64,000 nt of DNA, taken from positions 858,582 to 922,581 of the forward strand of contig NZ_CP063144.1 in NCBI RefSeq assembly GCF_014962245.1, written 5' to 3'. The translations under genes and the position numbers were made by a program. The notes under the pieces are model-generated. The model was not told the origin of the DNA. It searched no databases and was given only the letters and a program-made list of their open reading frames with translations. Of this stretch, positions 27,399 through 34,606 are shown piece by piece. Every line of letters begins with the position of its first letter. The first letter of the stretch is position 1. This DNA is from Thermosphaera aggregans (GTDB lineage: Archaea > Thermoproteota > Thermoprotei_A > Sulfolobales > Desulfurococcaceae).

Positions 27399-28181
27399 TT
27401 TTACACTATTAAGGTTTTTCTCCATTTCAACCACAATTCTAACAGGATCCTTCCCAGCGAAGCAGTACCATTTCATCTCGTCAAACTCCAACTCTTTCAA
27501 CCCGTTGAACAATAAATGTTCAAAACAAACAAGAGCCAGCTCATCCTCCATAAGTGAATCCTTAACACTTTTTCTCTGAATTTTATCCAACCTTACTACC
27601 TCCCTGTATTGTCGTGATAAGTAGATTTCAACCTCATAGGATAATCCCCTCTCAGTTATACACGAGAAAACCACTCTCCCCTTAACAGCTTCTTGGATAG
27701 ACGTATGAGAGAGGAATCTACTGATCGCGTCGAATAATCGGTCAACGCACTTGAAGCCCGCCACTTTTCTAGAAACAACAGATGCAGGGTTTACATTGTC
27801 ATACTCGTAGAATTCTGAGACTGCTTGTAAAGCATCGTTTACGGGAAGTCCTTTCAAGAGAAATCCTGCTAGTAGCCCTATGAAAATTCTCTCATCCACC
27901 GCTTCACTGGTGAGAAAACCTGTCAGTTCGCTGGATGAGGAACCGGTGTAAAACAAGCCGTTGAAGGGTTTGTTAACGACGATGCCGCCTTCATCGCCTA
28001 TACGGTACTCTTCTCCACGAATCTTAACTATCCATGTGTTTTTTATCCTGTATATAAGATTCTCGCGAGAATCGCAGTTTTCGACAACAGGTTTCACACC
28101 GTTCATCATTAACCCGTGTGAAATGTTTACAGCATCATCTAAGGAGATGCCTTCGATGCAAACACTACTCATGTCGATCAC
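27390..28181 (-). CDS. Unknown protein translationally coupled to nikR
   Basis: I do not recognise this 263-residue protein. It has no signal peptide or membrane helix. A first part (about 1-75) is beta-rich and ends with a Gly-rich turn (IGDEGGIVV). A middle part (about 80-165) is helical (IFIGLLAGFLLKGLPVNDALQAVSEFYEYDNVNP), and the last part includes EVEIYLSRQYREVVRLDKIQRKS and ALVCFEHLLFNGLKELEFDEMKWYCF. Its ATG overlaps the nikR stop by 4 nt, so the two are coupled. A role in nickel handling is inferred only from this linkage. Its 3' end overlaps the convergent DtxR-type gene by 9 nt. Confidence 0.7.
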   Translation of the reverse strand: MIDMSSVCIEGISLDDAVNISHGLMMNGVKPVVENCDSRENLIYRIKNTWIVKIRGEEYRIGDEGGIVVNKPFNGLFYTGSSSSELTGFLTSEAVDERIFIGLLAGFLLKGLPVNDALQAVSEFYEYDNVNPASVVSRKVAGFKCVDRLFDAISRFLSHTSIQEAVKGRVVFSCITERGLSYEVEIYLSRQYREVVRLDKIQRKSVKDSLMEDELALVCFEHLLFNGLKELEFDEMKWYCFAGKDPVRIVVEMEKNLNSVKLF

Positions 28182-28582
28182 CCCTTCATCTTGTACAGAG
28201 TCGGATTTACGAGGAGAACGCCTTTGAGCATTCTCAAATTGTCGATGAATTCTGAAACCCGTTTACCCTCACCTTTAACGATGATGTTTAACATGCATGT
28301 TTCCTCATCTAAATGAACGTGGAGTGTTGAAACAACTATTTCCAGGAATTCATGCTGAAGATCTGTTAGTTCGCTGTCAATGTTTTTCTTGCCATGATCG
28401 TAAACCACATTTATAGTGCCAACCACGGCCCCCTCTTTCAAAGGTTGGTTTAGATACATGTACAGCCTTAAGGCTTCTTGAACAAGCTTGCTCAAACTCA
28501 CGTTTTCCCCTTTAGAAGAAAACTTGGCAATCTCCTCGTAGATGTCGGCCGGTATGTAAACTCCTATTTTAACCCCCTTCAT
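28178..28582 (-). CDS. nikR: Nickel-responsive regulator NikR
   Basis: From ATG 28582 the protein has 134 residues. It has an N-terminal ribbon-helix-helix (KIGVYIPADIYEEIAKFSSKGENVSLSKLVQEAL) and the NikR C-terminal ACT-like domain. All four high-affinity nickel ligands are present: His77, His88, His90 and Cys96 (QHEF, LHVHLDEETC), one position off E. coli NikR numbering. A GGGGGAG Shine-Dalgarno directly before this ATG sets the start. The longer frame from 28687 lacks such support. It probably represses nickel uptake when nickel is plentiful; no transporter is adjacent. hypD at 17.5 kb implies nickel demand for hydrogenase. Confidence 0.92.
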   Translation of the reverse strand: MKGVKIGVYIPADIYEEIAKFSSKGENVSLSKLVQEALRLYMYLNQPLKEGAVVGTINVVYDHGKKNIDSELTDLQHEFLEIVVSTLHVHLDEETCMLNIIVKGEGKRVSEFIDNLRMLKGVLLVNPTLYKMKG

Positions 28583-28689
28583 TAACTCCCCCGTCTGAAT
28601 AGCATGATATAAAAGCTTATTCAAATATTTGTCGAAATAGGGATGACCGCAGCCCTCCTGAAAGAACCCGAAGGATGTTTGATTCACGG

Positions 28690-28773: not shown

Positions 28774-29034
28774 ATGCTAAATGTTAGTGAAAAAATAATA
28801 TCGAGAGCAACGGATTTAACGAATCTTTTAATGCTGAAGTATATTACGATGCTTGAAGACTTGAAAGTCTATGAGGCTGAGGTAGAATCCTCGGATATGA
28901 GCCCGGAGGATAAGGAAGCAACTCTTTCTATGATTAACTTGTTGAAAAACATTGTTGTAAAAGAAATTTATTCCCTTGCTGCGGAAGGATTATTTACCGG
29001 TACTAATACGCAGGAGGAGAGCGTCGCGCTCTGA
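28774..29034 (+). CDS. Small helical protein of unknown function
   Basis: This 86-residue protein was not recognised. It is predicted to be mostly helical, with an acidic middle (YEAEVESSDMSPEDKEATLSMINLLKNIVVKEIYSLA). No membrane segment, cysteine or known motif is visible. It has its own TATA box (about 28733-28741) next to the ACCGG repeat cluster and is divergent from nikR, so it may be regulated by it (inference). Confidence 0.6.
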   Translation: MLNVSEKIISRATDLTNLLMLKYITMLEDLKVYEAEVESSDMSPEDKEATLSMINLLKNIVVKEIYSLAAEGLFTGTNTQEESVAL

Positions 29035-29128
29035 TCATCTAAAATCACGTTTTTATTATCACTTACTTAATAGATTATTTTTGATGAATTAGCGAGGTGT
29101 ATCTAATCTGGAATCTTTTATCAACATT

Positions 29129-30745
29129 TTGCTCGGAGGGAAAGTCAGTCCTGATAAAACAATGCTACTTCCCGTTGACATTCATCCTTTCGTCGTACCA
29201 ACAGTAATAAGCAGGTTGAAGGAAGAGCTGGATATCACCGATTTCATAATCATCACGCGTAGGGAGACGGCTGAAAGCATAAGGAACGTGATGGATAGTT
29301 TTCCCTCAGACGTTAACATATACTTCGACAACATAATGTCGAAAAGCCTGTTGAAAGATAATATTTTTGAAAACCTGTTTTTGACGAGAAGTCTTATTAA
29401 ATCCCTTGAAGGCAAGCTAAACAAATTATACATTGATATATCAGCCATGTCTGGTCCTTTCGCAGGAGGAATCATGGAGGAGAAGAATCGTTTAAATATC
29501 GAAATCGTTTTCACACACGTTGACATAATACCTCTTCCAGGATTACCCCCATACCCATACAGTCCTAGATGGGTTCACAAACTCTATATTCACGGAAAAG
29601 TTGAACCAGCCCAACCATCCAATCAGAGCAACCAGTACTTGGACCTACCTCGCGAAATAAGATGGCAGGGTAGCAAGTACGTATTCATGGAGATATCCAA
29701 TATCCTAAACAGCATTACAGGTAAAGGGCTGGTTGAATCATTCTATGAAGGACAGAGGCATGTCCCGAGCGAAGGAGATAGGTTAAGCATTTACGCTTCC
29801 CTACCGGGAAGTGATGAGAAGAAACTACTTCTAACCATGGATACTAAAACCGGTCCTTCCGAAGAAGCCGTGACTATGATGTATGACAGCTGGAAAATCA
29901 TATCGAACATGATACATGAGCAGAATAGTGATGTTGATAAGACATTGCTAGATAGGGTTCTGATGCAGATTCAGAGATACACTGGAGCTGTGGACTTGAT
30001 TGTTAAAGAAATGAAGCCTTCACGTGTTGAAATACGTAGGGATGATCAAACCAGGGAGCACAGAGAATATAAAGGCTGGAAGATTCACAGCTTCCTCATC
30101 GACCTGGTTAGACAGGTTAAGAAGCCTATCGGTCTTCTCCCAGACACCAACATGTTTTATCAAGGATTCCATGTGACCTTGTTAAAGGCGAGCATAAAGA
30201 ACGGTCATCCCTGGTCGTCAATAGATGGTTTAAGAATTTACATACCGATCTGTGCTGAAGCAGAGATTAATGGAAAAGTCGCTGAGTCCGCGGGAGAGGC
30301 CAAAGGTTTATCCCTATACTCCTACGTAATGGCTTTGCTCGCTAATAGAGCTATTGATGAAGTTAAAAAGTATTATGGAAGTTTTCAAATACCGGCTGTT
30401 AGCCCTCCATGCGAAGCATCAATAGCTGTTGTAGCCCAGAATATCCACGAAGAGAAGGCCATATTAATGACTGCCGATAGGAAGGCTTACAACGCGTGGC
30501 AAACCATAAATGTCTGCAGCGATAAAGTTCTCTGTGTCTACGTGGGTCATCAACACAAGACGATAAACATTGATGGATTGTTCTCAAAGTACTATGCTAG
30601 CATTGTGCTCGCTAACCTACTATATGTTAGTAGCTTATTCGTAAACCTGGATATTGTTTCAACACAAGACAAGCTGAGACTAAGTCTCGAAAGCTTGAAA
30701 GGAAGCAATGCACCCGTAGTTAAAGTTTCCCGTATCTTAACCTAA
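29129..30745 (+). CDS. Probable CARF-domain protein with C-terminal PIN-like nuclease
   Basis: Residues about 10-160 look like a CARF-type Rossmann domain: TMLLPVDIHPFVVPTVIS, FIIITRRETAESI, LYIDISAMSGPFAGG (place of the family Gly/Ser-Thr loop) and IEIVFTHVDIIPL. Residues about 335-480 have a PIN-like acidic pattern: LLPDTNMFYQGF (Asp339), IPICAEAEINGK (Glu377/379), CEASIAVVAQ (Glu429) and ILMTADRKAYNAW (Asp450). CARF domains sense cyclic oligoadenylate and control attached nucleases in type III CRISPR immunity. No cas gene or array is visible here. The TTG at 29129 lacks a Shine-Dalgarno. A CTG at 29108, 8 nt after GAGGTG, would add seven residues and may be the true start. Confidence 0.6.
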   Translation: MLGGKVSPDKTMLLPVDIHPFVVPTVISRLKEELDITDFIIITRRETAESIRNVMDSFPSDVNIYFDNIMSKSLLKDNIFENLFLTRSLIKSLEGKLNKLYIDISAMSGPFAGGIMEEKNRLNIEIVFTHVDIIPLPGLPPYPYSPRWVHKLYIHGKVEPAQPSNQSNQYLDLPREIRWQGSKYVFMEISNILNSITGKGLVESFYEGQRHVPSEGDRLSIYASLPGSDEKKLLLTMDTKTGPSEEAVTMMYDSWKIISNMIHEQNSDVDKTLLDRVLMQIQRYTGAVDLIVKEMKPSRVEIRRDDQTREHREYKGWKIHSFLIDLVRQVKKPIGLLPDTNMFYQGFHVTLLKASIKNGHPWSSIDGLRIYIPICAEAEINGKVAESAGEAKGLSLYSYVMALLANRAIDEVKKYYGSFQIPAVSPPCEASIAVVAQNIHEEKAILMTADRKAYNAWQTINVCSDKVLCVYVGHQHKTINIDGLFSKYYASIVLANLLYVSSLFVNLDIVSTQDKLRLSLESLKGSNAPVVKVSRILT

Positions 30746-30816
30746 GCCATTACCTTATATTTTTTATCAAAAATTCTTTAAATACTGAACGTTCATAATA
30801 TTGTTCAGGGAGCTTC

Positions 30817-31191
30817 ATGAAACCCCTTGTGAAATTGATGACCCTGCTAGGGCTCCCCCCGGTAGCGGGGATAATTCTGTCGGTCCTACTAACTAGCGGG
30901 ACGCCTCTCGATCTTACTGAGCTCTCTAGAAAGACAGGTTATGCTAAGAGTCATCTATCGCAGACTTTGAAACTACTCTATGCAAGAGAAATCGTTGATT
31001 TCTATGTTGAAAGAAAGAAGAAATACTTCATAGTTAATAATCAGGGATTGTTAAAAGCGCTGAGAGAGCACATCAACAATTTAATTGATTCCTTAAACCA
31101 GCTTGCAAACCTCACTGAGAACCCGGAGTTTCTGAAACTTTACTTAGAAACTTTCAGGGATATAAAAGGTGAACATAATGTTCGACGCTAG
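30817..31191 (+). CDS. Winged helix-turn-helix regulator of the CARF-PIN cassette
   Basis: The 124-residue protein has a MarR/TrmB-like winged helix (TPLDLTELSRKTGYAKSHLSQTLKLLYAREIVDFYVERKKKYFIVNNQGLLKAL), with a basic wing and a C-terminal helix. It lies 71 nt after the CARF-PIN-like gene and overlaps the next gene by 14 nt. It may control the cassette. It lacks its own sensor domain. Confidence 0.7.
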   Translation: MKPLVKLMTLLGLPPVAGIILSVLLTSGTPLDLTELSRKTGYAKSHLSQTLKLLYAREIVDFYVERKKKYFIVNNQGLLKALREHINNLIDSLNQLANLTENPEFLKLYLETFRDIKGEHNVRR

Positions 31192-31537
31192 TGTTCCAGT
31201 AATCCTTATACCCAGCGCTGATGCCTCTCGCCTTTATGATGCCTTGTTGAAGATAAGCATTAGAGAACGCAAGAAAAGGCTATCCATTTACATCTGGTTG
31301 AATGGTGAAAACATTGAAAAACAGGTGGAAAAGTTAAGATCAATTATAAGTTTAAACCATATATTAACATTATCGTTCTTTGTTCTGCGCTCGAATCTAG
31401 AGGTTCTTAAAAAACACAATCCTAATCGGATTTACATTGTTTTCCCCGAGACACGTAAAGAAGTAGCACTAAGCATAGCTGGGCAGCTCTCTGAGATGAA
31501 AACAGAGGTTGTGGAGGTGGAGATCCCTGGGTTATGA
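31178..31537 (+). CDS. Small alpha/beta protein of unknown function
   Basis: From ATG 31178 (GGTG Shine-Dalgarno 5-6 nt upstream) the protein has 119 residues. The pattern alternates strands and helices: VPVILIPSA, LYDALLKIS, RLSIYIWLNG, IEKQVEKLRSII, LTLSFFVLR, NRIYIVFPETRKEVALSIAGQL, TEVVEVEI. It could be a small Rossmann-like sensor, perhaps a minimal CARF-type domain, but no signature proves this. It overlaps the regulator gene upstream by 14 nt and the radical SAM frame downstream. Confidence 0.55.
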   Translation: MFDASVPVILIPSADASRLYDALLKISIRERKKRLSIYIWLNGENIEKQVEKLRSIISLNHILTLSFFVLRSNLEVLKKHNPNRIYIVFPETRKEVALSIAGQLSEMKTEVVEVEIPGL

Positions 31538-33044
31538 GATTGTTTTAACATCCGATAGGACAATGATGAGTAATCATCATGGAAGAGAATTCTTAGGATT
31601 CGTCGCTACAGCGCCGCCTATATTTCTACCTGAAAGCTTATGGATGTATATTGCATCACCCAAGGTTGAAGTAGACGATGAGGGAAAGCCCAGGGAGGCA
31701 CCTTATGGAATGAGAAAGATCGAGGCGGTTCTTAAAGAAAAAGGCTTCAAGGCGTCGATCATTGACCCTGATCATTTGGGAAAGCACCTGGATTCGATGA
31801 AGGTATTAATGCTGAGCCACCACGATTACTTTGGCTATGGCCCTCCAACCAGCGAATGGTGGAGTTTAACTGGGAAAGAACCGCTGAACCGGAGAAGCTT
31901 TATTAAGTTAATGAGCAAGCCGGAAGTCCGCGAGGCGAAGAAAAAAGGCGTGAGGATCATTGCTGGCGGTCCAGCAGCTTGGCAATGGCTTTACGAGGTG
32001 AGGAAGTTCGTAGAGTGGGGTATTGACACAGTAGTAGATGGAGAGGCTGAAAAAATCATCGTCGACCTGGTTGAGAAAGCATTAAATAACGAGCCTCTCC
32101 CGAAATACGTTTACATAGGATCGGGTGATGTCCCATCCGTTGACGAAATCCCCATTATTAAGGGAGGAAGCGTAAATGGGCTCGTGGAGATAATGAGAGG
32201 TTGTCCGAGAGGCTGTAAGTTCTGCAGCGTCACCTTGAGACCCCTCAGATTCATACCGCTGGATAAGATCGTGAAAGAAGTCCAGGTGAATTTAACCGCG
32301 GGGGTGAAGGGAACGATTCTCCACAGCGAAGACATCCTCCTCTACCATGCAGACGGCGTTAAACCCCGTCCAGAAGCTATAATCAAACTCCACGAGGAGG
32401 TATTGAAACTCGTGGGAGAAAACGGCTCGTTCGCATGGTCTCATGTAAGTCTATCGGCTTTGAAATTCGCGGAGGAAAATCATGGGCTTATCTCGAAACT
32501 TATGCATGAGTATATTCTAACAGACTCTAGAAGGTTTATCGGGGTGGAAGTCGGTATTGAAACAGGCTCTCCGAGACTGGCTCAGGAAATAATGCGTGCC
32601 AAGTCACTCCCCTATCCCATAGAGGACTGGCCCGACGTTGTCGAAGACGCTTTCAAAATAATGCATGAAAACTCTATCATTCCCGCAGCAACAGTTATTC
32701 TAGGATTCCCAGGCGAGACAGGGGATGACGTGGTTAAAACAATTGAGCTAATAGAGAGGTTGAAAAACTACAGAAGCCTCATAGTTCCAATGTTCTTCGT
32801 GCCAATGGGGTCTTTAAAGAGTGGAGAATGGTTCATCAGAGACCACTTGAAACGGGAGCATGTGGATGCGCTGTTGAAAATTTACAATCACTCCATATAC
32901 TGGGCTGAAGACATTATGAACAAGTATTACTTGAAATCCCCTGCTAATCTCCCCGTGAGACTGCTGCTCAAATTCTTCATACGATACGCTAGAAGGCAGG
33001 TAAATAAGTACGTTGCAAAAATTGAAGAATATATTAAACAGTAG
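31509..33044 (+). CDS. Radical SAM protein with N-terminal B12-binding-like domain
   Basis: The product has about 500 residues. An N-terminal Rossmann-like region (MLSHHDYFGYGPP, RIIAGGPAAWQWL, VDTVVDGEAEKII) precedes a radical SAM core with MRGCPRGCKFC (C-x3-C-x2-C), then GTILHSEDILLY, GVEVGIETGSPRLAQ and ILGFPGETGDD. The family is common in archaea and the reaction is unknown. The conserved start of relatives aligns at EIVLTSDRTMMSNHHGREFLG. TTG 31509 may therefore be too early, and a CTG at 31527, six nt after GGAGGTGG, is the better supported start. It overlaps the previous gene. Confidence 0.8.
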   Translation: MWRWRSLGYEIVLTSDRTMMSNHHGREFLGFVATAPPIFLPESLWMYIASPKVEVDDEGKPREAPYGMRKIEAVLKEKGFKASIIDPDHLGKHLDSMKVLMLSHHDYFGYGPPTSEWWSLTGKEPLNRRSFIKLMSKPEVREAKKKGVRIIAGGPAAWQWLYEVRKFVEWGIDTVVDGEAEKIIVDLVEKALNNEPLPKYVYIGSGDVPSVDEIPIIKGGSVNGLVEIMRGCPRGCKFCSVTLRPLRFIPLDKIVKEVQVNLTAGVKGTILHSEDILLYHADGVKPRPEAIIKLHEEVLKLVGENGSFAWSHVSLSALKFAEENHGLISKLMHEYILTDSRRFIGVEVGIETGSPRLAQEIMRAKSLPYPIEDWPDVVEDAFKIMHENSIIPAATVILGFPGETGDDVVKTIELIERLKNYRSLIVPMFFVPMGSLKSGEWFIRDHLKREHVDALLKIYNHSIYWAEDIMNKYYLKSPANLPVRLLLKFFIRYARRQVNKYVAKIEEYIKQ

Positions 33045-33094
33045 TGATTTTAAAAGTGTCAACGAGGATAAAATGAAAGTAATAGGGGGAAGCA

Positions 33095-34606
33095 ATGAAC
33101 ACGTTTTACATTACAACACCCATATACTATCCCAATGGCCCGCCACACATAGGGCATGCATATACAACAGTTTACGCTGACGTGCTTGCAAGGTTTGCCA
33201 GGCTTCTTGAAAAAGACGTTTTCTTCTTAACAGGCAATGATGAACACGGGCTGAAAATTCAGAGATTCGCGGAAAAACTAGGTAAAACCCCTAAGGAAGT
33301 TGTTGATGAAATGGCAACAGTGTATAGGGATTATTGGTTAAGACTGAATATCTCGTATGACTACTTTATCCGCACAACGGATAGTGTTCATGAGAAGGTT
33401 GTGATGGATAGTTTCCGAAAACTATATGAAAAAGGCTATGTGTACAAGGACAAATATGGCGGGTTCTACTGCGTAGAGTGTGAAAAATACTATTTACCTG
33501 GAGAATACGTTGAAGTGGAGGGCAAGCCTTACTGCCCCATTCACAACAAACCCTTGGAATACTTAGAGGAGGAAACATATTATTTCAAACTAAGCGAGTT
33601 TAAGGATTTCTTGCTTCAGGTTTTAAGAAACGATAAAATTGTCTATCCTGAGGAGTATTCCCTTGAAGTTACTTCTAGAATAGAAAAAGAGGGTTTGAGA
33701 GACATATCTATTGCAAGGCCTGTTGAAAGGGTTTCATGGGGCGTCAAAGTACCTTTCGACCCGAGTTACGTGATATACGTATGGTTTGATGCCCTATTGA
33801 ACTACATAACTGGGGCAGGATATGCCACGGATCCCTCAAGGTTTGAGAAATATTGGGTAAACGTCCACCATGTTGTTGGGAAAGATATTTTATGGTTCCA
33901 CACAGCTGTTTGGTTCTCAATCCTTAAAGCACTAGATATTCCTCTGCCTAAAAAAGTCCTTGTACACGCGTTCCTGATAAACAAAGGTTTGAAAATCGGT
34001 AAGAGCGCTGGAAATGTTATTTCGATAGATGATCTGCTTTCAAGATACAACGGCCCTGACGGAGTTAGATACATACTATCTCGAGTATTCAATATGAGCA
34101 AAGACAGTGAGGTTTCATTCGAATTAATGGATGCCATATACAACGATGAATTAGCAGACACGTACGGAAATCTTGTCAGAAGAGTGGGAGCCCTAGCAAT
34201 GAAGAAATTAAAGGGTAAAATCTATAGAAGAGAGGTTGATAAGAAGCTGAATGAGCAGATAACCCTCAGGCTGAACACCTACCTTGAGCGCATGGGGAAT
34301 TATGACGTGCCAGGCGCAATTATTGAAATAATGGAGCTTTTAAGAGAGGGTAATGCTTACGTTAACAACACCAGGCCTTGGGAGAAGGAGGATCCTAGCA
34401 AGGAGCTTTACAGTCTACTAGAGCTTATTAGGGTTTCAACAATAGCGTTGGCTCCCGTGATTCCTAATGCCGCCTCGAAAGTGGCTGAGGAGTTTGGGTT
34501 TAGGATTGAAAATCCTGCAAGAGTTCAGCTAGGAGTGCTTGAAAGATACAATATAAGAAATGCTCCTATACTTTTCAAGAAAGTAATGCCACAGCGGAGT
34601 ACGTGA
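33095..34606 (+). CDS. metG: Methionyl-tRNA synthetase, bacterial-like form
   Basis: This 503-residue class I synthetase charges tRNA-Met. The HIGH motif is PHIGHAY (18-21), a zinc-binding insert is CVECEKYYLP...CPIH, YVWFDALLNYITG and GKDILWFH form the active site, and the KMSKS position reads KIGKSAGN. The layout, with one CxxC...CxxH insert and WFDALLNY, is like Thermus thermophilus MetRS rather than the usual archaeal enzyme. The C-terminal EMAP-like domain is absent. AGGGGGA before the ATG is a strong Shine-Dalgarno. The altered KMSKS (Ile and Gly in the middle) is notable. Confidence 0.92.
   Translation: MNTFYITTPIYYPNGPPHIGHAYTTVYADVLARFARLLEKDVFFLTGNDEHGLKIQRFAEKLGKTPKEVVDEMATVYRDYWLRLNISYDYFIRTTDSVHEKVVMDSFRKLYEKGYVYKDKYGGFYCVECEKYYLPGEYVEVEGKPYCPIHNKPLEYLEEETYYFKLSEFKDFLLQVLRNDKIVYPEEYSLEVTSRIEKEGLRDISIARPVERVSWGVKVPFDPSYVIYVWFDALLNYITGAGYATDPSRFEKYWVNVHHVVGKDILWFHTAVWFSILKALDIPLPKKVLVHAFLINKGLKIGKSAGNVISIDDLLSRYNGPDGVRYILSRVFNMSKDSEVSFELMDAIYNDELADTYGNLVRRVGALAMKKLKGKIYRREVDKKLNEQITLRLNTYLERMGNYDVPGAIIEIMELLREGNAYVNNTRPWEKEDPSKELYSLLELIRVSTIALAPVIPNAASKVAEEFGFRIENPARVQLGVLERYNIRNAPILFKKVMPQRST

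Follow-up and report, generated by a model that had tools for sequence, protein, structure and literature searches.

Thermosphaera aggregans encodes a 538-residue protein in which a CARF sensor domain is joined to a PIN nuclease domain, and it does so in a genome where we found no match to Cas10, RAMPs or Cas1. CARF domains are best known for receiving the messenger that Cas10 makes. With moderate confidence, we interpret this CARF-PIN protein as a vertically inherited, stand-alone ligand-gated RNase that works here independently of type III CRISPR. The gene lies in a 64,000-nucleotide stretch of the host genome, which we refer to as the window.

The CARF-PIN protein and its family

A first-pass annotation of the window had described a compact cassette of three open reading frames: a CARF-PIN nuclease, a winged-helix protein and a small alpha/beta protein. 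The three frames lie where it placed them. The features discussed here are listed below (window positions).

28178-28687, minus strand: NikR-family regulator with an N-terminal extension
28774-29034: 86-residue helical protein, just upstream of the CARF-PIN gene
29129..30745, plus strand: CARF-PIN protein (CARF_m12 family), 538 residues, TTG start
29435..29455, plus strand: CARF signature loop, residues 103-109 (DISAMSG)
30143..30478, plus strand: PIN catalytic stretch, codons D339 to D450 (D339, E377, E379, E429, D450)
30777..30784, plus strand: putative TATA-like box TTTAAATA, read directly from the sequence, between the CARF-PIN and winged-helix genes
30817-31191: winged-helix protein, 124 residues
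31169-31537: small Rossmann-like protein, 122 residues, overlapping the winged-helix frame by 23 nt

A CTG codon at 29108, where the annotation began the region, lies in the same open frame and would add the residues LESFINI. The close homologue in genome G096 also has LESFINI, and this codon may be the true start of the gene.

Searching the PADLOC models gave a full-length match to the CARF_m12--CARF_PIN profile (PDLC01979; E 5.3e-193, 640 bits; residues 13-534 on profile positions 22-529 of 533), which bears out the assignment of CARF and PIN domains. We take this family to come from the 2020 CARF classification. The protein is a genuine CARF-PIN with the same full-length architecture as the catalogued family, from which it shows no architectural difference. 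Nor is the architecture new, since PADLOC holds a model of the exact family and CARF-PIN fusions were already reported in 2014 (PMC4012209).

The domains span approximately residues 1-157 (CARF), 176-300 (middle region) and 333-475 (PIN). When 21 homologues were aligned, none of the five acidic residues named in the annotation (D339, E377, E379, E429 and D450) varied, so the acidic pattern is not a chance one. In the same alignment, the CARF loop has the consensus D-[LI]-[ST]-x-x-x-G, with D103 and G109 invariant. An AlphaFold model of the protein (pLDDT 87, pTM 0.89) contains the beta-alpha order of a PIN fold.

The best PDB match of the model in Foldseek was SiRe_0806 of Sulfolobus islandicus, which has been solved free and bound to cA4 (PDB 9jxw and 9jxx) and which aligned over about the whole length (E 4e-9 to 4e-8, probability 1.00; 4e-9 for the cA4-bound 9jxx). 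Identity between the two proteins is 10-11%, and the likeness is structural: the CARF family of SiRe_0806 was not confirmed by sequence, and PDB sequence searches with CARF-PIN proteins and profiles returned chance matches only and did not recover 9jxw. Domain-length matches (about 131-141 columns, probability 0.99-1.00) to Can2, Cdn1, Cam1, Card1 and the ring nuclease Sis0455 confirmed the CARF fold. Pfam and NCBIfam searches gave no match, including to any Pfam PIN model, and no free-standing PIN structure was among the best 50 Foldseek matches; the grounds for the PIN label are thus the name of the PADLOC profile, the acids, the fold order and homology to other CARF-PIN proteins.

CARF-PIN proteins of the CARF_m3 type (PDLC01984 and PDLC01983), from other Desulfurococcales families and Sulfolobales, are homologous to the window family over both domains (hhalign 99.4%, E 5e-21) and share with it motifs of the DTN, YP-x2-P, PxC, PC-[ED] and T-x-D types. 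They differ in being shorter, in their identity of about 20% and in belonging to a different CARF clade. Genes of this divergent type are widespread in those groups (49 further genomes; L024-L030 and L139-L148). In the literature, we found no biochemistry for the clade of the window protein and no paper on SiRe_0806 or on 'CARF-PIN' by name.

Descent of the gene and CRISPR genes in its carriers

Full-length CARF_m12 members were found in 23 of the 229 genomes of the class that were searched, and all 23 are Desulfurococcaceae. A contig scan for CARF-PIN returned only metagenome-assembled genomes belonging to this group, Staphylothermus and Thermogladius among them. A single draft genome (G074, 260 contigs) carries three copies, on contigs C202, C242 and C252, and is probably a strain mixture.

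We compared the CARF-PIN tree with that of methionyl-tRNA synthetase (MetRS) in 20 genomes, using the genus labels of the searched genome set. Both trees unite g1 with g2, and both of these with g13 against the rest; both also group g3 with g11, g8 with g16, and g4, g6, g8, g12 and g16 together. Their sole difference is the placement of g6, which is weakly supported. Between G000 (the host genome) and G096, neither of which has Cas10, dN/dS was 0.045-0.057 for CARF-PIN and 0.03-0.06 for MetRS; in genus g2, where all three species are without Cas10 and RAMPs, it was about 0.10 for CARF-PIN (all values are approximate, as synonymous sites are near saturation). Judged by tree agreement and substitution ratios, CARF-PIN is vertically inherited and under purifying selection, including between species without Cas10.

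The fourth position of the CARF loop is Gly (DLTG or DLSG) in g3, g4, g6, g8, g11, g12 and g16, and Ala, Leu or Met in g1, g2 and g13, most genomes of which are without Cas10. This difference could reflect a different ligand.

The separation from CRISPR that had been noted for the window holds genome-wide, as far as our searches reached. The host genome is a single contig of 1,305,106 bases (99.86% complete), and profile searches of it returned no match to RAMPs, the Cas10 palm domain or Cas1; the CRISPR repeat of its congeners, the one repeat used in the array check, has zero copies there and 88 and 194 copies in the two congeners. Both congeners have Cas1 as well as these large arrays, suggesting a recent loss of CRISPR-Cas in the host. 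Because no type III system was detected, the signal for CARF-PIN would not come from a resident one. A profile for Csx1 matched nothing in 11 genomes, a weak test in which only one control genome matched.

Another source of cyclic oligoadenylate (cOA) was also considered. SMODS-type matches occurred in all eight genomes tested, and the single one in the host is the archaeal CCA-adding enzyme (TIGR03671), so the SMODS profile gave no second cOA synthase. A divergent synthase could have been missed by these searches.

The main alternative is that CARF-PIN is an ordinary ancillary RNase of type III systems that answers cyclic oligoadenylate in trans, and that species without Cas10 keep the gene because type III systems are gained and lost, or brought in by mobile elements, more quickly than this chromosomal gene disappears. 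That the nearest structural relative was determined in complex with cA4, the messenger of type III systems, speaks for this explanation and against a CRISPR-independent one. PIN RNases are also listed among cOA-activated effectors (PMC12669027), and effector-bearing CARF proteins have a strong overall link to type III systems (PMC4012209). The same 2014 survey had already noted CARF genes without a CRISPR link, and just 9 of its 145 genomes with CARF genes were without both cas1 and cas10 (PMC4012209).

Within the family, the distribution of CRISPR genes bears on this alternative in both directions. Cas1 was commoner in near-complete genomes with CARF-PIN than in those without it (9/15 versus 0/8, P = 0.007, uncorrected for phylogeny), an association that favours the type III explanation and weighs against independence from CRISPR. 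Cas10 is present in five of the 15 near-complete carriers, but its frequency is alike with and without CARF-PIN (5/15 versus 2/8, P = 1.0); ten of the 15 are without both Cas10 and RAMPs, and five of the 15 are without Cas1 as well. Nor are the homologues confined to type III cas operons: in none of the 23 carrier genomes does CARF-PIN lie near a Cas10, RAMP or Cas1 match (in draft genomes, these matches are on other contigs), and no strong cas core match was among the PADLOC matches listed for representatives of neighbour genes within about 6 kb. The window gene itself is not part of a type III locus. Genus g2 also counts against a type III role, as its three species retain the gene under constraint. 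On this evidence, we consider a type III RNase acting in trans to be rather unlikely.

A housekeeping nuclease of Desulfurococcaceae for RNA processing or quality control, whose CARF domain binds RNA and not a signal, is improbable. Vertical inheritance with a tree that matches MetRS, constraint close to that of MetRS, and neighbours that are mostly ordinary chromosomal genes or genes without known function would all fit such an enzyme. However, 8 of the 23 near-complete genomes in the family yielded no CARF-PIN gene, so it is not essential; its branch lengths show faster evolution than those of MetRS; and the CARF signature loop is retained.

Neighbouring genes

Synteny across loci revealed no conserved operon partner of CARF-PIN. 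The first-pass annotation had proposed that the two downstream genes form a cassette with the nuclease, the winged-helix protein and the small Rossmann-like protein being a Csa3-like regulator divided into two genes. Both proteins are of the kinds it described: the second frame matches MarR_2 (E 9e-6, just under the gathering score) and has a weak Csa3 winged-helix match (5e-6), and structure prediction gave the third an alternating alpha/beta fold (pLDDT 84). The three genes are also adjacent in the window and in two congeners.

The winged-helix protein, the small DUF5751-like Rossmann protein, a radical-SAM protein and MetRS (window 30817-34606) form an operon that is conserved across Desulfurococcaceae. 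In a search of 40 genomes, many other genera had a winged-helix homologue some 2.3-2.4 kb upstream of MetRS, in the order winged helix, small protein, radical SAM and MetRS; CARF-PIN is present at such loci only in the genus of the window and is found at other sites in the remaining genera. In genus g13, the small protein adjoins the radical-SAM gene, and two other genes stand between it and CARF-PIN. For the model of the small protein, none of the 50 best PDB matches was a CARF structure; they included generic Rossmann-like folds, universal stress proteins and a protein of the DUF5751 type. The putative TATA-like box at 30777-30784 would fit the winged-helix operon having a transcription start of its own.

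Given an operon conserved without CARF-PIN, this TATA-like box and a small protein without a CARF match, the ideas of a dedicated regulator and of a split Csa3 both fall. The cassette is refuted as a conserved unit, which makes a split regulator of the nuclease very improbable, and genus-specific cross-talk alone is possible. From the annotation as a whole, the identification as CARF-PIN, the catalytic residues and the separation from CRISPR have survived; the regulator cassette and the split Csa3 have not.

Other PADLOC matches among neighbour genes were set aside. Those to Csa3, CasR and CARF3 look like generic winged helices, and the homologue in the window matches only the winged-helix end of the profiles. 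Matches of the DruE, BrxHI and DpdJ types are probably to an MrfA-like helicase gene.

Upstream, the 86-residue helical protein was considered as a dedicated antitoxin or inhibitor of CARF-PIN, near which it lies at 14 of 21 loci in seven genera, but this is scarcely credible and we regard it as a neighbour only: homologues were detected in 30 of 40 genomes, including several without CARF-PIN; its orientation relative to CARF-PIN varies; and in genus g4 its gene is located apart from CARF-PIN, still next to the same two companion families. With proteins of about 100 and about 260 residues (the latter with hydrophobic ends, by eye), it makes up a Pfam-unmatched neighbourhood that is conserved in Desulfurococcaceae with or without CARF-PIN (window 28774-29034; L035:7324-8786; L033:4186-5686). 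The NikR-family gene further upstream points away from the CARF-PIN region; next to it is an uncharacterized gene for a 263-residue protein, seen only in the genus of the window.

A proposed ligand-gated RNase

As a stand-alone RNase, CARF-PIN would bind a small oligonucleotide signal through its N-terminal CARF domain, probably in a dimer, as other CARF proteins do. Binding would activate the PIN domain at the C terminus, where the acidic cluster is predicted to bind a divalent metal and cleave RNA, leading to growth arrest or RNA turnover. Gating by a ligand, the RNA substrate and dimerization are inferred here by analogy with related proteins. Csx1/Csm6 and Can/Card1 are CARF-gated nucleases of the kind proposed; they carry a HEPN or PD-(D/E)xK nuclease domain instead of PIN and belong to type III systems.

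The CARF domain of RtcR offers a precedent outside CRISPR, as its ligands are tRNA fragments with a cyclic phosphate terminus (PMC7790460); a signal RNA unrelated to CRISPR is thus plausible for CARF-PIN. RtcR differs in that its divergent CARF is fused to AAA+ and HTH domains, and it is a transcription activator, not a nuclease. For CARF-PIN, the ligand would more likely be an endogenous or infection-generated RNA product, for example an RNA fragment that ends in a cyclic phosphate, like those read by RtcR.

To what was catalogued for CARF_m12, our analysis adds its detection, in these searches, in Desulfurococcaceae only, its vertical tree and its persistence without detected Cas10, RAMP or Cas1. 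As far as the literature we found goes, this persistence and this mode of inheritance are new, although the 2020 CARF classification may already record part of them. In five near-complete genomes that carry CARF-PIN, Cas10, RAMPs and Cas1 all went undetected, and purifying selection on the gene is strong between species that lack Cas10. This raises the question of what ligand a CARF sensor receives where no Cas10 makes one, and it could be addressed with one purified protein. More tentatively, CARF-PIN could be uncoupled from CRISPR throughout the family and sense another nucleotide or an RNA-damage signal. If so, Desulfurococcaceae would possess a CARF-gated stress or antiviral RNase that works without Cas10.
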